Below are positions 3,018-18,745 of a stretch of 64,000 nucleotides of DNA, one piece after another; positions within the stretch are counted from its first letter, which is position 1; the number at the start of each line of letters is the position of its first letter. A program made the translations under genes and the position numbers. The stretch is from Pseudomonas sp. Irchel s3h14 (GTDB lineage: Bacteria; Pseudomonadota; Gammaproteobacteria; Pseudomonadales; Pseudomonadaceae). Location: assembly GCF_900187425.1 (NCBI RefSeq), contig NZ_FYDJ01000006.1, positions 186,001-250,000 of the forward strand, given 5' to 3'. The notes under the pieces were generated by a model. It was not told the DNA's origin. It was given only the letters and a program-made list of their open reading frames with translations, and searched no databases.

Positions 3018-4547
3018 ATGAGCAATAACGCGTCTTTTACGCCGCCCAGCCTGCTGCTCAGCACCATCGGCCTGTCGCTGGCGACCTTCATGCAAGTGCT
3101 CGACACCACCATCGCCAACGTGGCGCTGCCGACGATTTCCGGCAACCTGGGCGTGAGTTCGGAGCAGGGCACTTGGGTGATTACCTCGTTCGCCGTGAGC
3201 AACGCCATCGCGCTGCCGCTGACCGGTTGGCTCAGTCGGCGCTTCGGCGAGGTGAAGCTGTTTCTCTGGGCGACGATCCTGTTCGTGCTGGCCTCGTTTC
3301 TGTGCGGTATCTCGACCTCGATGCCGGAGCTGATTGGCTTTCGGGTGCTTCAAGGTCTGGTGGCAGGTCCGCTGTACCCTATGACTCAAACGCTGCTGAT
3401 TGCCGTCTATCCGCCCGCCAGGCGCGGCATGGCCCTGGCGTTGCTGGCGATGGTCACGGTGGTGGCGCCGATTGCCGGTCCCATCCTCGGCGGCTGGATT
3501 ACCGACAGCTATAGCTGGCCGTGGATCTTCTTCATCAACGTGCCGATCGGTGTTTTCGCGGTGATGGTGGTGCGCCAGCAACTCAAGGCGCGGCCGGTGG
3601 AAACCAGCTACCAGCCGATGGATTACGTCGGTTTGATCACGCTGATCATTGGCGTCGGCGCCTTGCAGGTGATCCTCGACAAGGGCAATGACCTGGACTG
3701 GTTCGAGTCGAACTTCATCCTCATCGGCGCGGCCATTTCAGTGATAGCGCTGGCGGTGTTCGTGATCTGGGAAATGACCGACAAACACCCGGTGGTCAAC
3801 CTGCGGCTGTTCGCTTACCGCAACTTCCGGATCGGCACGATTGTGCTGGTGTTGGGTTACGCCGGGTTCTTCGGGATCAACCTGATTCTGCCGCAATGGC
3901 TGCAAACCCAGATGGGCTATACCGCCACGTGGGCGGGTCTGGCGGTGGCGCCGATCGGGATTCTGCCGGTGTTGATGTCGCCGTTTGTCGGCAAGTACGC
4001 ACACAAGTTCGACCTGCGGCTGTTGGCCGGCCTGGCGTTCCTGGCGATTGGCCTGAGCTGCTTCATGCGTGCCGGGTTTACCAACGAAGTGGACTTCCAG
4101 CACATCGCTCTGGTGCAGCTGTTCATGGGGATTGGCGTGGCGCTGTTCTTCATGCCGACCTTGAGCATTCTGATGTCGGACCTGCCACCGAGCCAGATCG
4201 CCGACGGCGCGGGCCTGGCGACGTTCCTGCGGACGTTGGGCGGTAGTTTTGCGGCGTCGCTGACGACCTGGATCTGGATTCGCCGGGCCGATCAGCACCA
4301 CGCCTATATGAGCGAAAGCATCAGCACCTATGAGCCGGCGACCCGCGAGGCGCTGAACAGCCTGGGCGGGGCGAGCAATCCGGCGTATGCGCAACTGGAT
4401 CATGTGCTGACCAGTCAGGCGTACATGCTCTCCACCGTGGATTACTTCACATTGCTGGGCTGGGCATTCATGGGCTTGATTGTGCTGGTGTGGCTGGCGA
4501 AACCGCCGTTTGCGGCGAAGGCGGGGCCGGCTGCCTCCGGCCACTAG
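3018..4547 (+). CDS. emrB: EmrB-like DHA2-family MFS drug:H+ antiporter (14 membrane segments)
   Basis: 509 residues with about 14 hydrophobic segments, as expected for the DHA2 branch of the major facilitator superfamily. The first segment carries LDTTIANVALP, the DHA2 motif D1, and a loop motif GWLSRRFGE (motif A) follows. It should use the proton gradient to drive drugs through the EmrA/outer-membrane conduit. I place the start at ATG 3018 because a good ribosome binding site (AAAGGA) sits 6 nt upstream. An in-frame GTG at 2985 would add 11 residues but has no ribosome site. It is the last gene of the operon; a REPIN follows 18 bp after the stop. Confidence 0.94.
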   Translation: MSNNASFTPPSLLLSTIGLSLATFMQVLDTTIANVALPTISGNLGVSSEQGTWVITSFAVSNAIALPLTGWLSRRFGEVKLFLWATILFVLASFLCGISTSMPELIGFRVLQGLVAGPLYPMTQTLLIAVYPPARRGMALALLAMVTVVAPIAGPILGGWITDSYSWPWIFFINVPIGVFAVMVVRQQLKARPVETSYQPMDYVGLITLIIGVGALQVILDKGNDLDWFESNFILIGAAISVIALAVFVIWEMTDKHPVVNLRLFAYRNFRIGTIVLVLGYAGFFGINLILPQWLQTQMGYTATWAGLAVAPIGILPVLMSPFVGKYAHKFDLRLLAGLAFLAIGLSCFMRAGFTNEVDFQHIALVQLFMGIGVALFFMPTLSILMSDLPPSQIADGAGLATFLRTLGGSFAASLTTWIWIRRADQHHAYMSESISTYEPATREALNSLGGASNPAYAQLDHVLTSQAYMLSTVDYFTLLGWAFMGLIVLVWLAKPPFAAKAGPAASGH

Positions 4548-9363: not shown

Positions 9364-9474
9364 GATCGTTCCCACGCTCTGCGTGGGAATGCAGCCCGGG
9401 ACGCTCCGCGTCCCTTCCAGAGCCGAACGCGGAGCGTCCGTTGAGGCATTCCCACGCGGAGCGTGGGAACGATC
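9364..9474. repeat. Palindromic repeat with GATCGTTCCCACGC ends
   Basis: A 111-bp imperfect inverted repeat. It begins GATCGTTCCCACGCTCTGCG and ends with the matching CGCGGAGCGTGGGAACGATC, with a nested GGACGCTCCGCGTCC hairpin inside. It differs from the REPINs elsewhere in the window, but this kind of element recurs in fluorescent pseudomonad genomes. Its last bases overlap the stop codon of the sigma-54 activator gene. Confidence 0.85.
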
Positions 9475-11308
9475 AGTCGCCTGTCTGGCGCAATCGTTTA
9501 TAAAGGGTATTTCGGCTAACCCCAAGCCTGCGGGCCAAATGGGAGATATTCCCCCCGGCCGCCTGCAACTGCCGATTCAAATCCTCGGCATCATTCAAAT
9601 CCACCGCCAACGGCTCCGCCACCCCCACCGGCTCCATCTCCAGATCAACAAAAAAATCATCCGGCAAATGCTCCGGCCGCACCGGTTGCTCCTCGGCCAT
9701 GGCCAACGCTACCTGCATCACGCTGCTGACCTGCCTTAAATTCCCCGGCCACGGATGACGCCCAAACAACTCCAATACCTCTCTGCTCAAGCCGGCCCAT
9801 TGGCTCGGCTCGCGGTGTTGCTCCCACAGGCGTTTGAACAGTGCTTCCTTGTCACTGCGTTCGCGCAGAGGAGGCAGTTCCAGGGTCAAACCACCAATCC
9901 GGTAATACAAATCCTCACGAAACCGCCCCAACTGAACCTGCTCGCGCAACGAGCGGTTGGTCGCCGAAATAATCCGTATATCCACCGGGAACAACTCGCT
10001 GCTGCCCACCGGTTGCACGCAGCGCTCCTGCAACACTCGCAGCAGTCGAGCCTGAGTCGGCAACGGCATATCACCGATTTCATCAAGGAACAGGGTGCCT
10101 TTGTCAGCCTTGCGGATCAGCCCGATGCTGCCTTTCTGGTTGGCACCGGTGAATGCGCCTTTCTCATAGCCAAATAATTCGGATTCCACCAATTCGGCGG
10201 GGATCGCTGCACAGTTGACCGCAATGAACGGTTGTTTGCTGCGTGAGCTGGCCTGATGCAGGGCTTTGACGAAGACTTCCTTGCCGACCCCGGTTTCGCC
10301 GTGGATCAACAACGGAATGTCTTTTTCCAGCAACCGCTCGGCCTGACGCACGGCTTTTTCCACGCGGCTGTCGCCAAAATGCAGGGTATTGAGGCTGATC
10401 GCTGTGGGCGCCGGCACCGTGGGTTCAGCAAACACTCGGGCTTGAATCGGCGCTTGTTTTGGCCGTTTCAGCAGGCATTGAAAGCGGTTACGCCCCGAGG
10501 CTTGCAGGGCAAACGGCAGGCCGTCCGGCTGGTTCAGCAACTCCAGCAGTGAGACTTTGAACAGACTTTCGACACTGACCCGCGACAGGCTGATGCCCAG
10601 CAGATTGTCGGCCCGGCGGTTGGCGGACAGCACCTGACCGGTTTCATCAAAGATCAGCAGCCCGGCCCATTGGCTGTCGAGGTTGTTCAGTCCGGTGTTG
10701 AAGGTCAACTGGAAATGCTGGCCATGGAACAGGTTGAGGATCAGCCGGTTTTCCACGGTCTGACTCATCATCTTGACCATGCCGAGGGTGTGGGACGGCG
10801 GCAGGTAACTGTCGCTGGACACATCCAGCACCGCGATGACCTTGCGCTCGGCATCGAAAATCGGTGCGGCAGAACCGGTCATGAATCGGTTGGCCTTGAG
10901 GAAATGTTCATCGTGCTCGATGTGCACCGCCTGCTCGCAGGCCAGGGCGGTGCCGATTGCATTGGTGCCGCTGCAGCGTTCCATCCAGCTGGCGCCGGCG
11001 CTGAAACCGCGGGTCAGGTTCGGCTCGATAAAACGCTGGGTGCCCCAGGACGTCAGCACCTGGCCCTGATTGTCGGCGAGCATGATCAGGCAGTTGGAGT
11101 TGCTGAGGATGTTCTCGTAATACGGCAGGACTTCCTGGTGAGTGGTTTGCACCAGTGAGTGCTGGCTCTCCAGCAATTGCGCAATGCCCTCTGCCGGCAG
11201 CTGGTCGAACGCCGGGGCGCTCTGATGATTGAGGCCGAACGCGCGGCAACGGGACCAGGAGTCCTGGATGATGGCGTCGTGGGAGAGCGGCAAGGCGGGT
11301 GCGGCCAT
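9473..11308 (-). CDS. Sigma-54-dependent GAF/AAA+/Fis activator (AcoR-like)
   Basis: 611 residues from the chosen ATG. An N-terminal GAF-type sensory region (about 60-210) and a short PAS-like segment (about 215-310) precede the AAA+ domain. This has Walker A GETGVGKE near residue 330 and the sigma-54 contact loop GAFTGA near residue 380. A Fis-type helix-turn-helix lies at the C-terminus (LARRLGVSRNTLYKR). It therefore remodels RNA polymerase-sigma54 at -24/-12 promoters. It is divergent from the ABC importer operon, which has such a promoter and a repeat array, so it is most likely that operon's activator. The effector is unknown; GAF domains of this class sense small organic molecules. An in-frame start at 11359 would add 17 residues, starting one base inside the large palindrome. 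Confidence 0.92.
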   Translation of the reverse strand: MAAPALPLSHDAIIQDSWSRCRAFGLNHQSAPAFDQLPAEGIAQLLESQHSLVQTTHQEVLPYYENILSNSNCLIMLADNQGQVLTSWGTQRFIEPNLTRGFSAGASWMERCSGTNAIGTALACEQAVHIEHDEHFLKANRFMTGSAAPIFDAERKVIAVLDVSSDSYLPPSHTLGMVKMMSQTVENRLILNLFHGQHFQLTFNTGLNNLDSQWAGLLIFDETGQVLSANRRADNLLGISLSRVSVESLFKVSLLELLNQPDGLPFALQASGRNRFQCLLKRPKQAPIQARVFAEPTVPAPTAISLNTLHFGDSRVEKAVRQAERLLEKDIPLLIHGETGVGKEVFVKALHQASSRSKQPFIAVNCAAIPAELVESELFGYEKGAFTGANQKGSIGLIRKADKGTLFLDEIGDMPLPTQARLLRVLQERCVQPVGSSELFPVDIRIISATNRSLREQVQLGRFREDLYYRIGGLTLELPPLRERSDKEALFKRLWEQHREPSQWAGLSREVLELFGRHPWPGNLRQVSSVMQVALAMAEEQPVRPEHLPDDFFVDLEMEPVGVAEPLAVDLNDAEDLNRQLQAAGGNISHLARRLGVSRNTLYKRLRQTGD

Positions 11309-11359
11309 GGCAATCGATCTCTGATCATTATTATTTTTGTTATGAGTAACGCGATTCAT

Positions 11360-11490
11360 GTAGCAGCTGGCGAAGCCTGCGTTCGGCGACGCAGTCGTCG
11401 TGAAACCTGTTTGCGCGGTCATCCTGATACACCGCGCCGCCTGATATCACGACGACTGCGTCGCCGAACGCAGGCTTCGCCAGCTGCTAC
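11360..11490. repeat. 131-bp inverted repeat with perfect 44-bp arms
   Basis: Arms 11360-11403 and 11447-11490 are exact reverse complements (ends GTAGCAGCTGGCGAAGCC and GGCTTCGCCAGCTGCTAC) around a 43-bp loop. No coding sequence, terminal duplication or transposase is present. It resembles the larger palindromic repeat families of Pseudomonas rather than a REPIN. It sits just upstream of the activator gene. Confidence 0.93.
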
Positions 11491-11540
11491 AAGGGCGTGC
11501 GCGATTCAGAATTTCCCGCAGTAAAAGCATCCGTAGAGTG

Positions 11541-11620
11541 TTGTTCACTATTGTTCATTGTCAACCGCCGGATTGTTCAATTGTTCAGTCGCGGTTGTTC
11601 ATTTCTGTTCAGCAATGAAC
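11541..11620 (+). promoter_or_regulatory. Array of TTGTTCA heptamers: probable activator-binding sites
   Basis: Exact TTGTTCA occurs at 11541, 11551, 11573, 11581 and 11595. CTGTTCA follows at 11605 and an inverted TGAAC at 11616. They fall in three pairs with 10, 8 and 10 bp between starts. The array lies about 60-160 bp upstream of the predicted -24/-12 promoter, the usual place for enhancer sites of sigma-54 activators. Assignment to the divergent AcoR-like protein is inferred. Confidence 0.65.
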
Positions 11621-11675
11621 GCGGTTTTTCTTCCATTTGCAAGATTCTCAAGCCGGATCAACGGCTTGCATTTTC

Positions 11676-11691
11676 TGGCACGAATGTCGCT
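11676..11691 (+). promoter_or_regulatory. Sigma-54 (-24/-12) promoter of the ABC importer operon
   Basis: The sequence TGGCACGAATGTCGCT matches the consensus TGGCACG-N4-TTGCW at all but one position, with the correct 10 bp between the GG and GC pairs. Transcription should start near 11702, giving a leader of about 34 nt before the ATG at 11736. The adjacent sigma-54 activator gene supports the call. Confidence 0.8.
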
Positions 11692-11735
11692 CTGTAGCTC
11701 CGGTCGCTTGACTCCAATAATAAAAAGGCCGAGCC

Positions 11736-12830
11736 ATGTCATTAACCCTGGAGCACGTCAGCCGCACCGTCGAGGGCCAGACCTGGATCGACGATGCGTG
11801 CCTTAGTTTCGAAGCCGGATCCTTCAACGTTTTGCTCGGGCGCACGCTGTCCGGCAAAACCAGTCTCATGCGCTTGATGGCCGGTCTGGACAAGCCCGAC
11901 AGCGGCCGCATCCTGATGAACGGCGTCGACGTCACCCAGCGCCCGGTGCGTTTGCGCAATGTGTCGATGGTCTATCAGCAGTTCATCAACTACCCGACCA
12001 TGACGGTGTTCGAGAACATCGCCTCGCCCTTGCGCCAGGGCGGTGTTTCCAATGAGCTGATCCAGAGCAAAGTGCTGGAAACCGCGAAGATGTTGCGCAT
12101 CGAGAAATTCCTCCAGCGCCATCCGCTTGAACTCTCCGGTGGTCAGCAACAACGCACGGCGATGGCCCGGGCGCTGGTCAAGGATGCCGAGCTGATCCTG
12201 TTCGACGAACCGCTGGTGAACCTCGACTACAAGCTGCGTGAAGAACTGCGTCAGGAAATGCGCGAGCTGTTCAAGGCTCACCACACCATCGCCATCTACG
12301 CCACCACCGAACCCAACGAAGCCCTGGCGCTGGGCGGCACCACCACCATTCTTCACGAAGGTCGGGTTATTCAGAGCGGCAAGTCTTCCGAGGTGTATCA
12401 CCAGCCGCAAACCGTGCTGGCCGCAGAGCTGTTCTCCGAGCCGCCGATCAATCTGATGCCGGGACGCATTGCCGGCAACGAAGTCAGCTTCGCCAATTTC
12501 GTGCACTTCCCGCTGAACGTCGATCTGCGGCCGGTGGGCGAGGGCGAGTTCCGCTTTGGCGTACGGCCCAGCCATATTTCGCTGGTGCCGAGCAACGACG
12601 ATGACCTGGAACTGGCGGTGACCGTCGAGGTGGCCGAGATCAGCGGTTCGGAAACCTTCCTGCACGTGCGCAACGAACATTTCCTGTTGGTGCTGCACTT
12701 GCCCGGCGTTCACGAATACGACGTCGATGCGCCGATTCGCATCTATATCCCGACCCATAAACTGTTTGTCTTCGATACGCAGGGGCGGCTGGTCCAGGCG
12801 CCCGGTCGCCGTATCGCGAGGGTTGCCTGA
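11736..12830 (+). CDS. ABC importer ATPase 1 (GlpS-like, MalK/UgpC family)
   Basis: 364 residues: nucleotide-binding domain followed by the OB-fold regulatory domain of the MalK group. Walker A is GRTLSGKT, the Q-loop lies in YQQFINYP, the signature is a canonical LSGGQQQR, and Walker B/catalytic Glu is LFDEP. The H-loop histidine is absent: the equivalent stretch reads YATTEPNEAL, where MalK-type proteins have THD. The second ATPase overlaps by 1 bp. The gene order of the operon (two ATPases, two permeases, small DUF2160 membrane protein, large binding protein) is that of the Rhizobium glycerol importer GlpSTPQUV, so a polyol such as glycerol is the best guess for substrate. Substrate identity is inferred. 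Confidence 0.88.
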   Translation: MSLTLEHVSRTVEGQTWIDDACLSFEAGSFNVLLGRTLSGKTSLMRLMAGLDKPDSGRILMNGVDVTQRPVRLRNVSMVYQQFINYPTMTVFENIASPLRQGGVSNELIQSKVLETAKMLRIEKFLQRHPLELSGGQQQRTAMARALVKDAELILFDEPLVNLDYKLREELRQEMRELFKAHHTIAIYATTEPNEALALGGTTTILHEGRVIQSGKSSEVYHQPQTVLAAELFSEPPINLMPGRIAGNEVSFANFVHFPLNVDLRPVGEGEFRFGVRPSHISLVPSNDDDLELAVTVEVAEISGSETFLHVRNEHFLLVLHLPGVHEYDVDAPIRIYIPTHKLFVFDTQGRLVQAPGRRIARVA

Positions 12831-13921
12831 TGGCCGAAATCCGTTTGCAGCACCTTGCCCACAGTTACACCCGCACGCCGACCGGCCCCGAGGATTACGC
12901 GATCCGCGAGATGGACCACGTCTGGGAGCAGGGCGGCGCCTATGCCTTGCTCGGGCCTTCAGGCTGCGGCAAGTCGACCTTGCTCAACATCATTTCCGGG
13001 CTGCTCAGTCCGTCCCAGGGTCAGGTGCTGTTCGACAGCAAAGTGGTCAACGACTTGACCCCGGAGAAGCGCAACATCGCCCAGGTTTTCCAGTTTCCGG
13101 TGGTCTACGACACCATGACGGTGTTCGACAACCTGGCCTTCCCGCTGCGCAATCAGGGCATGGCCGAGGCGAAAATTCACAGCAAGGTGCAGGAAATCGC
13201 CGAAGTCCTCGACCTCCAGACGCTGCTGAGCAAGAAGGCGCGCAACCTCACCGCCGATGAAAAGCAGAAAGTCTCCATGGGCCGTGGGCTGGTGCGCGAT
13301 GACGTGTCAGCGATCCTGTTCGATGAACCGCTGACCGTGATCGACCCGCACCTGAAGTGGAAATTGCGACGCAAGCTCAAGCAGATCCACGAGCAGTTCA
13401 ACATCACCATGGTCTACGTCACCCACGATCAGCTCGAAGCCTCGACCTTCGCCGACAAGATTGCGGTGATGTACGGCGGGCAGATTGTGCAATTCGGCAC
13501 GCCGCGAGAACTGTTCGAGCGGCCGAGCCACACCTTTGTCGGCTATTTCATCGGCAGTCCGGGGATGAACCTGATCGAGGTACAGCCACAACCGGGTGGT
13601 GTCGGTTTCGCCTCGACACATTTGCCGCTGTCCGATGCTCAGCAGAAACGCGTTGCCGAGTCCGAGTGGAAAACCCTGAAGGTCGGTATCCGTCCGGAGT
13701 TCGTGCATGTGTGGGACGAGCCGTTTGATGAGGCGATGCAGGCACAGGTCGTACATGTCGAAGACCTTGGCACCTACAAGATCATGACCCTGAACCTCGA
13801 CGGCGTTCCTTTGAAAGTGCGCCTGGCCGAAGACAAGCCAGTGCCTGAGGGAACCGCCCACATCAGCTTTCCGGCGCAATGGTTGATGGTGTATGCCGAC
13901 GAATATCTCTTGGAGACGTAG
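12830..13921 (+). CDS. ABC importer ATPase 2 (GlpT-like)
   Basis: 363 residues, same architecture as its partner. Walker A GPSGCGKS, Q-loop in FQFPVVYD, Walker B LFDEP and a normal H-loop (YVTHDQLEA) are present. The ABC signature is degenerate: LTADEKQKVSMGRG replaces LSGGQxQR. In a heterodimer with ATPase 1, one composite site would be complete (this protein's Walker A and H-loop with the partner's LSGGQ) and the other degenerate. It starts on the last base of the upstream stop (TGATG), so the two subunits are coupled translationally. The gene that follows starts 2 bp after its stop. Confidence 0.88.
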   Translation: MAEIRLQHLAHSYTRTPTGPEDYAIREMDHVWEQGGAYALLGPSGCGKSTLLNIISGLLSPSQGQVLFDSKVVNDLTPEKRNIAQVFQFPVVYDTMTVFDNLAFPLRNQGMAEAKIHSKVQEIAEVLDLQTLLSKKARNLTADEKQKVSMGRGLVRDDVSAILFDEPLTVIDPHLKWKLRRKLKQIHEQFNITMVYVTHDQLEASTFADKIAVMYGGQIVQFGTPRELFERPSHTFVGYFIGSPGMNLIEVQPQPGGVGFASTHLPLSDAQQKRVAESEWKTLKVGIRPEFVHVWDEPFDEAMQAQVVHVEDLGTYKIMTLNLDGVPLKVRLAEDKPVPEGTAHISFPAQWLMVYADEYLLET

Positions 13922-13923
13922 CC

Positions 13924-14790
13924 ATGAACAAGGTGCAGAACAACAAGGCCTGGTGGCTGGTGTTGCCAGTGTTTTTGCTGGTGGCGTTCAGTGCGGTGAT
14001 CCCGATGATGACGGTGGTCAACTACTCGGTGCAGGACATCTTCGACCAGTCCAGCCGCTACTTCGTCGGCGCCGACTGGTACAGACAAGTGCTGCTCGAT
14101 CCGCGCCTGCATGACTCATTACTGCGTCAGTTCATCTACTCCGGCTGTGTGCTGCTGATCGAAATCCCGCTGGGCATCGCCATCGCCCTGACCATGCCGA
14201 CCAAGGGCCGCTGGTCGTCGCTGGTGCTGATCATCCTGGCGATTCCGTTGCTGATTCCGTGGAACGTGGTCGGCACGATCTGGCAGATCTTCGGTCGGGC
14301 GGACATTGGTCTGCTCGGCGCCAGCCTCAAGGCCATGGGCATCAACTACAACTACGCGGCCAACACCATGGACGCCTGGGTCACGGTGCTGGTGATGGAC
14401 GTCTGGCACTGGACGTCGTTGGTGGCGCTGTTGTGTTTCTCGGGTCTGCGAGCGATTCCGGACGTGTACTACCAGGCGGCGCGGATTGATCGGGCCTCGG
14501 CCTGGGCGGTTTTCCGACACATCCAGTTGCCCAAGCTCAAGAGCGTGTTGTTGATCGCGGTGATGTTGCGGTTCATGGACAGTTTCATGATCTACACCGA
14601 GCCGTTTGTGCTAACCGGTGGCGGTCCGGGGAATGCCACGACGTTCTTGAGTCAGACCCTGACGCAAATGGCGATCGGGCAGTTCGACCTCGGCCCGGCG
14701 GCGGCTTTCTCGCTGGTGTACTTCCTGATCATCCTGTTGGTGTCCTGGCTGTTTTACACCGCCATGACTCACTCTGACGCCAACCGCTGA
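13924..14790 (+). CDS. ABC importer permease 1 (GlpP-like, MalF-type)
   Basis: 288 residues with about six membrane segments and a binding-protein-dependent transport (BPD_transp_1) domain. The EAA coupling-helix region is visible around YYQAARIDRASAWAVFRHIQLPKLK, which contacts the ATPases. The start is ATG 13924 immediately after the upstream stop; the longer frame from 13879 lies inside the previous gene. It forms the inner-membrane pore with permease 2. It is annotated from fold and operon position; no substrate residues can be read. Confidence 0.9.
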   Translation: MNKVQNNKAWWLVLPVFLLVAFSAVIPMMTVVNYSVQDIFDQSSRYFVGADWYRQVLLDPRLHDSLLRQFIYSGCVLLIEIPLGIAIALTMPTKGRWSSLVLIILAIPLLIPWNVVGTIWQIFGRADIGLLGASLKAMGINYNYAANTMDAWVTVLVMDVWHWTSLVALLCFSGLRAIPDVYYQAARIDRASAWAVFRHIQLPKLKSVLLIAVMLRFMDSFMIYTEPFVLTGGGPGNATTFLSQTLTQMAIGQFDLGPAAAFSLVYFLIILLVSWLFYTAMTHSDANR

Positions 14791-14798
14791 GGTCTGCC

Positions 14799-15599
14799 AT
14801 GAGCAAGAGAAAGCTGATTCCGTTGCTGATCTACATCCTGTTCCTGCTGGTGCCGATCTACTGGTTGCTGAACATGTCCTTCAAGAGCAACACCGAAATC
14901 CTCAGTGGCCTGACGTTGTTTCCGCAGGATTTCACCTTCGCCAACTACAAGGTGATCTTCACCGATCCGGCCTGGTACACCGGTTACCTCAACTCGCTGT
15001 ACTACGTGAGCCTGAACACGGTGATTTCGCTGAGCGTGGCATTGCCGGCCGCGTATGCGTTCTCGCGCTATCGGTTCCTCGGTGACAAGCACCTGTTCTT
15101 CTGGCTCCTGACCAACCGCATGGCACCACCGGCGGTGTTTTTGCTGCCGTTCTTCCAGTTGTATTCCTCGATTGGCTTGTTCGATACGCACATCGCTGTC
15201 GCGTTGGCTCATTGCCTGTTTAACGTGCCGTTGGCGGTGTGGATCCTTGAGGGCTTCATGTCCGGCGTACCGAAGGAAATCGACGAAACCGCCTACATCG
15301 ACGGCTACAGTTTCCCCAAGTTCTTCGTGAAGATTTTCGTTCCGCTAATTGGTTCCGGGATCGGTGTGACGGCGTTTTTCTGCTTTATGTTTTCCTGGGT
15401 CGAACTGCTGCTGGCGCGAACGCTGACGTCGGTCAACGCCAAACCGATTGCGGCGGTGATGACGCGCACGGTCTCGGCGTCCGGTATCGACTGGGGCGTG
15501 CTGGCGGCGGCGGGGGTGTTGACTATCCTGCCAGGCATGCTGGTGATCTGGTTTGTTCGCAACCACGTGGCCAAGGGCTTTGCCCTGGGCCGGGTCTGA
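14799..15599 (+). CDS. ABC importer permease 2 (GlpQ-like, MalG-type)
   Basis: 266 residues with about six membrane segments and a BPD_transp_1 domain. The EAA loop reads VPKEIDETAYIDGYSFPKFFVKIFVPL, the classic E-x-A-x-x-D-G pattern of MalG-type subunits. The start lies 8 bp after permease 1. It should pair with permease 1 in the inner membrane. The next gene follows within 8 bp, so the operon is tightly packed. Confidence 0.91.
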   Translation: MSKRKLIPLLIYILFLLVPIYWLLNMSFKSNTEILSGLTLFPQDFTFANYKVIFTDPAWYTGYLNSLYYVSLNTVISLSVALPAAYAFSRYRFLGDKHLFFWLLTNRMAPPAVFLLPFFQLYSSIGLFDTHIAVALAHCLFNVPLAVWILEGFMSGVPKEIDETAYIDGYSFPKFFVKIFVPLIGSGIGVTAFFCFMFSWVELLLARTLTSVNAKPIAAVMTRTVSASGIDWGVLAAAGVLTILPGMLVIWFVRNHVAKGFALGRV

Positions 15600-15606
15600 G
15601 GAACTG

Positions 15607-15882
15607 ATGATGGAATGGATGAGTTGGACCGGCCCTACGGCGGCATTCTTCAGCGTCATTGCCTTGATCCTGGTGGGCATGACGACCTGGGAACTGCGTT
15701 CGCCGAGCATCCTTCGGCGTGGTTTGTTGCCGATTGCCACCACCCGTGGCGATCGGTTGTTTATCGGTCTTCTCGGCAGCGCCTACCTGCATTTGCTGGT
15801 AATCGGCGTCACCGACTGGAGCATCTGGGTGGCGTTCGCGTTGTCCCTGGTGTGGCTGTTGGCTGTGATGCGTTGGGGCTAG
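15607..15882 (+). CDS. Small DUF2160-family membrane protein of the ABC operon (GlpU-like)
   Basis: 91 residues with three probable membrane segments (about 9-26, 48-66 and 68-88). A basic loop (RRGLLPIATTRGDR) separates the first two. No catalytic motif is seen. Proteins of this family occur almost only between the permease and binding-protein genes of this importer type, which suggests an accessory subunit; its role is not established. Two adjacent ATGs (15607 and 15610) could serve as the start; I give the first. Confidence 0.8.
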   Translation: MMEWMSWTGPTAAFFSVIALILVGMTTWELRSPSILRRGLLPIATTRGDRLFIGLLGSAYLHLLVIGVTDWSIWVAFALSLVWLLAVMRWG

Positions 15883-15929: not shown

Positions 15930-17672
15930 ATGTTCGACAAAAACAATAAGCTGCGACATAGCGTTTCATTGGCAGCCATGCTGGCACTCAGCGGGTTGAG
16001 CGCTGCAGCCTGGGCGGATGCCTATGAAGACGCCGCCAAGAAATGGATTGGCAGCGAATTCAAACCGTCCACCCTGACCGAAGCCCAGCAGCTCGAAGAG
16101 CTGAAGTGGTTCATCAAGGCGTCCGAGCCGTTTCGCGGAATGAGCATCAAAGTGGTCTCGGAAACCATCGCGACCCACGAATATGAATCCAAAGTGCTGG
16201 CCAAAGCCTTTACCGAGATCACCGGGATCAAGCTGACCCACGACTTGTTGCAAGAAGGCGACGTGGTGGAAAAGCTGCAGACCCAGATGCAATCGGACAA
16301 GAACATCTATGACGGCTGGGTCAATGACTCGGACCTGATTGGCACGCACTTTCGCTACGGCAAAACCGAATCGATCACCGACCTGATGGCCAACGAAGGT
16401 AAGGCTTATACCTCGCCGACCCTGGACATCAAAGACTTCATCGGCATCTCGTTCACCACCGCGCCGGACGGCAAGATCTATCAGCTGCCCGACCAGCAGT
16501 TCGCCAACCTTTACTGGTTTCGCGCCGACTGGTTCGAGCGGGCGGATCTGAAAGCAAAATTCAAAGAAAAATACGGCTATGAACTGGGCGTGCCGGTGAA
16601 CTGGTCGGCCTATGAAGACATCGCCAAATTCTTCAGTGAAGACATCAAGGAAATCGACGGCAAGCGCGTCTACGGTCACATGGACTACGGCAAGAAAGAT
16701 CCGTCCCTGGGCTGGCGCTTCACCGATGCCTGGTTCTCCATGGCGGGTGCTGGCGACAAGGGCATTCCCAACGGCTTGCCGGTGGACGAGTGGGGCATCC
16801 GCGTCGAGGACTGCCATCCGGTCGGCTCCAGCGTGACCCGAGGCGGCGACACCAACGGCCCGGCGGCGGTCTATGCAACCACCAAATACGTCGACTGGCT
16901 GAAGAAATATGCGCCACCGGAAGCGGCGGGCATGACCTTCTCCGAATCCGGTCCGGTGCCGTCCCAAGGCAACATCGCGCAGCAGATCTTCTGGTACACC
17001 GCGTTTACCGCCGACATGACCAAACCGGGCTTGCCGGTGATGAACGCCGACGGCACGCCGAAATGGCGCATGGCACCGTCGCCGAAAGGTCCGTATTGGG
17101 AAGAGGGCATGAAACTCGGTTATCAGGACGCCGGTTCCTGGACCTTCCTCAAGTCCACGCCAGAAAAGCAAAGGCTGGCGGCCTGGTTGTACGCGCAGTT
17201 CGTGACCTCGAAAACCATATCCCTGAAGAAAACCATCGTTGGCCTGACGCCGATCCGCGAGTCGGACATCAACTCGCAAGCCATGACCGACCTGGCACCG
17301 AAACTCGGTGGTCTGGTTGAGTTCTATCGCAGCCCGGCCCGTGTGCAATGGACCCCGACCGGGACCAACGTGCCGGACTATCCGCGTTTGGCGCAACTGT
17401 GGTGGAGCCACATCGCCGAAGCCGCCAGCGGCGAGAAAACCCCGCAACAGGCGCTGGATGGTTTGGCCAAGGATCAGGACGCGATCATGACCCGTCTGGA
17501 ACGCTCGAAGGCGCAAGCCACCTGCGCACCGAAAATGAACCCCGAGCGCGACGCGCAGTACTGGCTGGACCAACCGGGTGCACCGAAGCCGAAACTGGCG
17601 AACGAGAAGCCTAAAGGTGAAACCGTGAGCTATGCCGAACTGCTGAAATCGTGGGAGGCGGCGCGTAAATAA
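15930..17672 (+). CDS. Periplasmic substrate-binding protein of the ABC importer (GlpV-like)
   Basis: 580 residues. A Sec signal peptide ends at about A29 (SAAAWA, then DAYEDA). The mature protein is an extracellular solute-binding fold (COG1653-like) and is longer than the usual 400-440 residues, a feature shared with the glycerol-binding GlpV type. A perfect AGGAGG precedes the ATG, stronger than for the other operon genes. That fits the excess of binding protein these systems need. The gene is last in the operon and is followed by a hairpin terminator. Substrate assignment to glycerol or a related polyol rests on operon similarity only. Confidence 0.88.
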   Translation: MFDKNNKLRHSVSLAAMLALSGLSAAAWADAYEDAAKKWIGSEFKPSTLTEAQQLEELKWFIKASEPFRGMSIKVVSETIATHEYESKVLAKAFTEITGIKLTHDLLQEGDVVEKLQTQMQSDKNIYDGWVNDSDLIGTHFRYGKTESITDLMANEGKAYTSPTLDIKDFIGISFTTAPDGKIYQLPDQQFANLYWFRADWFERADLKAKFKEKYGYELGVPVNWSAYEDIAKFFSEDIKEIDGKRVYGHMDYGKKDPSLGWRFTDAWFSMAGAGDKGIPNGLPVDEWGIRVEDCHPVGSSVTRGGDTNGPAAVYATTKYVDWLKKYAPPEAAGMTFSESGPVPSQGNIAQQIFWYTAFTADMTKPGLPVMNADGTPKWRMAPSPKGPYWEEGMKLGYQDAGSWTFLKSTPEKQRLAAWLYAQFVTSKTISLKKTIVGLTPIRESDINSQAMTDLAPKLGGLVEFYRSPARVQWTPTGTNVPDYPRLAQLWWSHIAEAASGEKTPQQALDGLAKDQDAIMTRLERSKAQATCAPKMNPERDAQYWLDQPGAPKPKLANEKPKGETVSYAELLKSWEAARK

Positions 17673-17863: not shown

Positions 17864-18178
17864 TCAGGTCAGCGCCGCCAGTTGTTGAACCGTCTCCGGA
17901 AAGCGCTCAACCAGCCGGATCAACGTTGTCGCCTGAGCATTAGGTTTCGCTCGTCCTTGCTCCCAGTTTTCCAGCGTCCGGGTATTCGTACGCAAATACA
18001 TCGCGAATACCGAACGGGAAAGGTTGAGCTGTTGGCGTATGGCTACCACTTCCTCGGCAGTGATGGGTACCAGTTTTGGCAGTTTGACCTTGTGGCTCCG
18101 CAGCGTGACCTTACCTTGGCGCTCGTCGGCCAAGGCTTCGAGGCCCTCCATCAGTTCGGAAAAAATGTCACGTTTCAT
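17864..18178 (-). CDS. HigA-like antitoxin, XRE-type helix-turn-helix
   Basis: 104 residues. An N-terminal segment that probably contacts the toxin (MKRDIFSELMEGLEALADER) is followed by a Cro/C1-type helix-turn-helix at about 40-95 (IRQQLNLSRSVFAMYLRTNTRTLENWEQGRAKPN). The toxin gene lies upstream and overlaps it by 11 bp, the reversed order typical of HigBA and NadS-type pairs. It should neutralise the toxin and repress the promoter of the pair. A second, broken copy of this N-terminus exists at 30134-30262. The exact subfamily name is uncertain. Confidence 0.88.
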   Translation of the reverse strand: MKRDIFSELMEGLEALADERQGKVTLRSHKVKLPKLVPITAEEVVAIRQQLNLSRSVFAMYLRTNTRTLENWEQGRAKPNAQATTLIRLVERFPETVQQLAALT

Positions 18179-18518
18179 AGTGAGTTCTCGTATTGATTTC
18201 TCTATCCAGCGTTTGTCTGAAAAGTTTTTTCTGGGCTGGCGTCAGGTCGTCCTGCTCGTTTTTGCTGTACACCGTGAACAGCCAGAATTGATCGAAACCT
18301 GACCACCAGTAATAAATCACCCGTAATCCGCTGCGCTTGCCTTTGCCTCGTCGCTGGTCGGAGAAGCGGACTTTGCGCAAACCGCCCGTACCTTCCACGA
18401 GATCGCCCGCTTCCGGGTTTTTCAGCAGCTCCAGTTGAAAGCTGCGAAACAGTTCGTCGTCCAGGTAGTCATTTCTGTGCTTTTGAAATGCGGGTAATTC
18501 GATAAAAAGAGCGTCCAT
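18168..18518 (-). CDS. HigB/RelE-like toxin
   Basis: 116 residues. It matches the RelE/HigB2 group (COG4737-like) in length and in the pattern GTGGLRKVRFSDQRRGKGKRSGLRVIYYWW, a conserved basic core, followed by FTVYSKNEQDDLT. These toxins cleave mRNA on ribosomes. I chose ATG 18518 (MDALFIELPAF) since family members begin like this. The in-frame extension to 18569 is unsupported, and the ribosome site is weak in either case. The upstream 227 bp hold no gene. Function is inferred from family and from pairing with the antitoxin. Confidence 0.86.
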   Translation of the reverse strand: MDALFIELPAFQKHRNDYLDDELFRSFQLELLKNPEAGDLVEGTGGLRKVRFSDQRRGKGKRSGLRVIYYWWSGFDQFWLFTVYSKNEQDDLTPAQKKLFRQTLDREINTRTHYET

Positions 18519-18745
18519 GTTCTGTACGTTACCTGCGTATATTTCTATCACAAGAATCGAATAGGTCAAGGCTTCTGTTCTTGGCCAATTCGGTCAAGTC
18601 ATTACGTTAAAGTCGAAGGCAGGATCGGGATGTAGGACGAGGCTGATTCACCCGCGAGGCGATTCTGGATATCGGGGAGGAGGAATAAGCGGGCCAGCCT
18701 TATGACCCGAAACTTGCGCTTGCTCGGTGAGGTTCAAGACGGTAT

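Follow-up and report, generated by a model that had tools for sequence, protein, structure and literature searches.

The locus examined here lies on contig 31 of a 6.7-Mb Pseudomonas genome (G000), and the window is the whole 64,000-nucleotide stretch of DNA that was analysed. An activator gene starts with an ATG at position 11308 on the minus strand, glpS, the first gene of an ABC importer operon, starts with an ATG at 11736 on the plus strand, and an array of TGTTCA hexamers and a -24/-12 promoter element are situated between them. The features are listed below, and the 79 distinct Pseudomonas loci used for comparison are those examined with enough flank.

9473–11308, minus strand: activator gene, GAF-PAS-AAA+(GAFTGA)-Fis enhancer-binding protein, 611 aa (domains; divergent to glpS in 79 of 79 distinct Pseudomonas loci)
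11328–11335, minus strand: CA motif AATAATAA 5' of the activator start, candidate Crc/Hfq site (71 of 79 loci)
11537–11541, minus strand: AGTGT, which reads ACACT on the minus strand; candidate -10 element of the sigma-70 promoter of the activator (fixed distance to the -35 in 74 of 79 loci; weak consensus match)
11542–11547, plus strand: TGTTCA site 1 (sites 1 to 6: sequence and conservation)
11552–11557, plus strand: TGTTCA site 2
11559–11564, minus strand: TGTCAA, which reads TTGACA on the minus strand; candidate -35 element of the same promoter as the -10 at 11537–11541 ([AT]GTCAA in 79 of 79 loci)
11574–11579, plus strand: TGTTCA site 3
11582–11587, plus strand: TGTTCA site 4
11596–11601, plus strand: TGTTCA site 5
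11606–11611, plus strand: TGTTCA site 6
11616–11620, minus strand: inverted half-site TGAAC, 10 bp past site 6 ([TC]GAA at +10 in 62 of 78 loci)
11656–11668, plus strand: IHF-like site GATCAACGGCTTG, 7 bp 5' of the -24 (at most one mismatch in 43 of 78 loci)
11676–11691, plus strand: -24/-12 element TGGCACGAATGTCGCT (one mismatch; conserved)
11716–11726, plus strand: CA motif AATAATAAAAA 5' of the glpS ribosome site, candidate Crc/Hfq site (72 of 79 loci)
11736–12830, plus strand: glpS, ABC ATPase (domain and homology searches)
12830–13921, plus strand: glpT, ABC ATPase (domain and homology searches)
13924–14790, plus strand: glpP, permease, start inferred (domain and homology searches)
14799–15599, plus strand: glpQ, permease (domain and homology searches)
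15607–15882, plus strand: glpU, DUF2160 small membrane protein, start inferred (domain search)
15930–17672, plus strand: glpV, solute-binding protein (domain and homology searches)

The seventh, inverted half-site, the IHF-like site at 11656–11668, the minus-strand TTGACA at 11559–11564 and the CA motifs at both starts are additions to a preliminary description of this DNA.

The operon has the make-up of a GlpSTPQUV importer, with two ATPases, two permeases, a DUF2160 protein and GlpV in the known order. Plasmid-borne glpR/glpD/glpK clusters of Paracoccus and Rhizobium have the importer genes in the same order. GlpV shares 67% identity with its homolog in a Rhizobium plasmid locus (L192), which is encoded beside glpK, and glpK, glpD or glpR adjoin the activator-positive loci L095, L096, L174, L181, L184 and L185. 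From the gene order, the GlpV identity and these neighbours in relatives, glycerol is our best guess for the substrate, and it is probably what the system imports; the preliminary description had proposed a carbohydrate or polyol importer, a reading that can be narrowed to glycerol by homology and neighbouring genes. The glpK-glpR-glpD genes of this genome are located elsewhere, in a region with ATGTTCG and without TGTTCA pairs. Directly past glpV, two overlapping small genes on the minus strand (17864–18569) encode a HigA-type HTH antitoxin-like protein (17864–18178) and a RelE/HigB-type toxin-like protein (18168–18569).

Pfam found the sigma-54 AAA+ and Fis HTH domains in the activator, and the GAFTGA motif of enhancer-binding proteins is present. 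The GAF-AAA+-Fis architecture first assigned to it holds for AAA+, Fis and GAFTGA; no GAF domain was found by Pfam in the window protein itself, but among 31 members of the activator family Pfam identified GAF in 18 and PAS_4 in 24, and both the structure model and the match to DhaR agree with a GAF domain. The model (mean pLDDT 76.8, pTM 0.46) contains GAF-like, PAS-like, AAA+ and HTH parts, and Foldseek placed sigma-54 AAA+ domains at the top of its matches. Among solved sensors the nearest is that of DhaR (4lrx), to which the family profile matched over residues 7–254 with an E-value of 5e-15.

In its GAF-PAS-AAA+-Fis architecture and in the match of its sensor region to 4lrx, the protein resembles the AcoR/DhaR-type enhancer-binding proteins. 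Orthology to DhaR was ruled out by a score of 260.6 bits against a cut-off of 551 for the DhaR model, together with the missing DhaK (no PF02733 match in the genome). The name 'AcoR-like', given earlier, is adequate at the family level and not beyond it, since another paralog adjoins an aldehyde dehydrogenase gene and the nearest solved sensor is DhaR; beside the activator itself there are no acetoin or aldehyde dehydrogenase genes, its neighbour being the glp importer. The AcoR-like paralog of the same genome (G000:C39, 42%; L081 3986–5914) is divergent to the aldehyde dehydrogenase gene (6338 onward); it has a sigma-54-like element of its own, and the repeats upstream differ. A repeat, GTTCCCACGC...GCGTGGGAAC, is located at 9366–9476, after cysS, and a similar copy lies beside this paralog (L081, about 3877–3985).

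In the intergenic region, exact TTGTTCA copies start at 11541, 11551, 11573, 11581 and 11595, and a sixth heptamer, CTGTTCA at 11605, differs by one mismatch (leading T to C); all are on the plus strand, and the three pairs with spacings of 10, 8 and 10 reported originally were correct in both position and spacing. A segment of 61 bp contains five of the 20 exact TTGTTCA copies in the 64 kb. TGTTCA or TGAACA was counted six times in the 450 bp 5' of glpS against 0.30 expected from shuffles, and TGTTCA-N2-4-TGTTCA occurs at only seven places in the genome, three of them the array's own pairs. A wider regulon is not indicated, as the other four matches in the genome are single pairs and none forms an array; the surroundings were read for some of these four, which lie in or beside unrelated genes. 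A perfect dyad, TGTTCA-N4-TGAACA, is present in L040, L044 to L047, L174, L180 and L185, so the underlying site may be an ordinary dyad, with one of its arms making up most of what is seen in the array. An Rfam search for an RNA element at the locus gave zero matches. On the leader side of the activator, at 11380–11470, there is a hairpin with 40-nt arms (85% complementary) that looks like a REP/MITE-like repeat; in many relatives the sequence at this place is different or much shorter.

The -24/-12 element (TGGCACG-N4-TCGCT) that had been proposed ends 44 bp 5' of the glpS ATG, with the -24 GG and the -12 GC at the fixed spacing and a single mismatch. The match by itself was dropped as evidence because 1.28 such matches are expected per window, and it is the conservation that is significant. 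With at most two mismatches, the element is found in 79 of 79 Pseudomonas loci and 17 of 17 other loci, against 2 of 19 activator-negative loci. One mismatch is the usual state in Pseudomonas (75 of 79 loci), most of which have TCGC and not TTGC at the -12. The genome has an rpoN gene.

The distances between hexamers fit a 10.5-bp repeat, with a mean cosine of 0.546 against 0.10 ± 0.065 for random placement (maximum 0.329 in 2000); these register values, like the conservation counts, come from related genomes and are not independent events. The start of the last hexamer lies 59/60, 70/71, 80–83 or 90–93 bp 5' of the -24, and AGTGT lies 117/118, 128/129, 139/140, 148–152 or 159–161 bp 5' of it (coherence of the distinct values, 0.81). 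The register is weak between the -24 and the glpS ATG (0.22) and between the activator ATG and the array (0.18). The array–promoter distances step by approximately whole turns, so insertions and deletions there seem to be accepted only when they amount to about a whole number of helical turns. An IHF-type site with at most one mismatch was recognised in 43 of 78 Pseudomonas spacers (3.8 in shuffles) and was unrecognisable in the other 35; it is placed mostly 7 bp, otherwise about 17 or 28 bp, 5' of the -24, again in steps near whole turns. In L181 and L184 (110 and 59 bp 5' of glpS, respectively) a TGTTCA overlaps the -24/-12 itself (TGGTATGTTCATTGCG), and a protein bound there could block the promoter.

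We searched 119 genomes of the genus Pseudomonas for the activator, and an ortholog (55–100% identity) was present in most of them. The activator gene is divergent to glpS at every one of the 79 distinct loci, and each contains 4–7 TGTTCA hexamers, the commonest spacings being 10, 22, 8, 14, 10 (34 loci) and 10, 22, 10 (11 loci); the conservation of heptamers and -24/-12 in orthologous regions, set beforehand as a test, was therefore borne out. Outside Pseudomonas, the activator (46–63% identical) is divergent to glpS in 16 loci from other genera and families, including Psychromonas, Natronospirillum and a Photobacterium plasmid, and these have 2–9 copies of TGTTCA or TGAACA in either orientation and a -24/-12. 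Among 19 glpS loci lacking the activator, 18 had no hexamer and one had a single hexamer. The absence of the activator was checked genome-wide for 16 of these 19 loci, the remaining three being plasmid loci, and in those 16 genomes the search found no ortholog, only more distant paralogs. At L173, where five hexamers are present, the activator is not adjacent but is encoded on another contig (59%); within genus g22, genome G137 has the activator and six hexamers, and G210 has neither. The TGTTCA array follows the activator, not the importer.

The minus strand of the same region carries TTGAC[AT] in 79 of 79 loci, with ACACT or AAACT 17 bp further in 74 of them, and AGTGT is retained even where hexamer 1 has decayed (L051, L059, L062). 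Hexamers 1 and 2 are located between the candidate -35 and -10 of this predicted activator promoter, so the activator should repress itself. Our confidence that these elements form a sigma-70 promoter blocked by the bound activator is only moderate, the chances being about even, because ACACT matches a -10 poorly.

In 72 of the 79 loci the motif AANAANAA is found no more than 42 nt from the glpS start (9.3 expected from shuffles), and in 71 of them it is equally close to the activator start. When the same rule was applied to the window, one of its 39 genes, glpS, had a CA motif. A CA motif has been reported for P. putida PP_2264, which we took as the ortholog by gene order only, and its protein was increased 7–9 fold on CrcY/CrcZ overexpression in octanoate medium (PMC12533007). 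The CA motifs at both start codons place the circuit under predicted Crc/Hfq catabolite control.

Taken together, these comparisons suggest, with a probability of about 0.83, that the glycerol ABC importer GlpSTPQUV is controlled from this region by a sigma-54 switch of its own, run by the divergent activator on the TGTTCA array, with predicted autorepression and Crc/Hfq control. What the sequence comparison itself shows is the gene pairing, the array with its -24/-12 and register, an IHF-type site in many species, and the conserved TTGACA and CA motifs. In the proposed mechanism, the GAF-PAS-AAA+-Fis activator, with glycerol or a derivative as the likely inducer, would bind the array as its upstream activating sequence. 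Most of the array would be kept on the same side of the helix and in phase with the promoter, so that, with bending by IHF aiding the contact in many species, the bound activator could reach the sigma-54 RNA polymerase at the -24/-12 and open the promoter. On the first two sites it would repress its own predicted sigma-70 promoter, and the CA motifs would bring the circuit under Crc/Hfq catabolite control. The complete sigma-54 control circuit put forward in the preliminary description is supported as an interpretation by the conservation of the array and the -24/-12, which track the activator.

Two other readings concern the control of the operon. The GlpR operator is built on TGTTCG, which is one base off TGTTCA, glpR adjoins several related importers, and it is present in this genome; the array might accordingly be an operator array of this DeoR-family repressor, with the -24/-12 being minor or accidental. 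We consider this very improbable and reject it, because the TGTTCA arrays vanish without the activator although GlpR is present: activator-less loci with an adjoining glpR (L186, L190, L192, L194) have no TGTTCA, and in three of them (L186, L190 and L192) TGTTCG/CGAACA occurs once or twice instead. Moreover, the region of the genome's own glpK-glpR-glpD has ATGTTCG and not TGTTCA pairs, and a pure operator needs no register with a -24/-12 that occurs only with the activator. It is also improbable that the operon is expressed mainly from an unrecognised sigma-70 promoter or by nitrogen-stress control, the sigma-54 element being secondary. Under nitrogen limitation P. putida PP_2260–2263, which like the rest of PP_2259–2264 were matched to our locus by gene order and annotation and not by sequence, were up 17, 40, 11 and 10 fold in the wild type and still 6.7, 8.0, 6.3 and 7.6 fold in the rpoN strain, and PP_2259 was named a putative regulator (PMC7801951). 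However, urtA and urtB, listed as NtrB/NtrC targets, also remained induced in the rpoN strain (wild type against rpoN strain: urtA, 12.7 and 11.1 fold; urtB, 9.9 and 6.9 fold; PMC7801951, Table 2), so this dataset is no clean sigma-54 test and is unfit for assigning sigma-54 independence. In addition, no conserved plus-strand -35/-10 was seen, a promoter scan gave only one weak plus-strand site, far upstream at the activator start, and every activator-positive locus retains the -24/-12.

The circuit may also be real and the substrate another polyol or glycerol-phosphate, to which we give a small but appreciable chance. The P. putida subunits are annotated as sn-glycerol-3-phosphate-type (PMC9358898, PMC7801951), UgpC is the top NCBIfam model for the ATPases, although below the cut-off, and glpK sits elsewhere in Pseudomonas. 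Against these points stand the resemblance of GlpV to the Rhizobium protein encoded beside glpK, the glpK, glpD and glpR genes adjoining the activator in several relatives, and the Cupriavidus homolog, which has been linked to glycerol (PMC7912956).

For the sigma-54 switch itself, the parts are of known kinds and the circuit as a whole seems undescribed; our literature search found no paper describing a TGTTCA binding site or a sigma-54 circuit for a glycerol importer. IHF-assisted sigma-54 promoters with divergent, self-repressing activators are known from the XylR/DmpR type. As in those systems (a comparison from general knowledge), the activating sites here lie about 60–140 bp 5' of the -24, a candidate IHF-type site lies between, and the predicted activator promoter overlaps the activating sites; in contrast to their palindromic dimer sites, there are six same-strand half-sites in phase. 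One speculative picture, which we think rather unlikely, is that the activator reads a directional, one-sided array of about six same-strand half-sites (4 to 7 by species) on one DNA face, which would seat separate subunits and help to build the active AAA+ ring in place of the usual palindromic dimer sites, the first sites doubling as the off-switch of the activator's own promoter.

The unusual points are the one-sided phased array and the swap of regulator relative to the rhizobial system. The importer operons of Rhizobium leguminosarum VF39 and Cupriavidus metallidurans (Rmet_2229–2234) share the gene order, including DUF2160, with the operon studied here, but they are controlled by the DeoR-type repressor GlpR (PMC7912956), in agreement with the earlier remark that the rhizobial glycerol importer is not described with sigma-54 control. 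In Rhizobium the importer operon is clustered with glpD/glpK; the present operon has an activator, a TGTTCA array and a sigma-54 promoter instead. One importer would thus be run by two opposite logics, with a GlpR repressor in rhizobia and Cupriavidus and, in Pseudomonas and relatives, a sigma-54 activator. Spacing that changes in whole turns would offer a clean natural experiment on the dependence of sigma-54 activation on the DNA face. For an uncharacterised activator present in most sampled Pseudomonas genomes, a target and a candidate binding site can now be named, with glycerol as the likely signal, and the same activator class would include P. putida PP_2259, judging by gene order.
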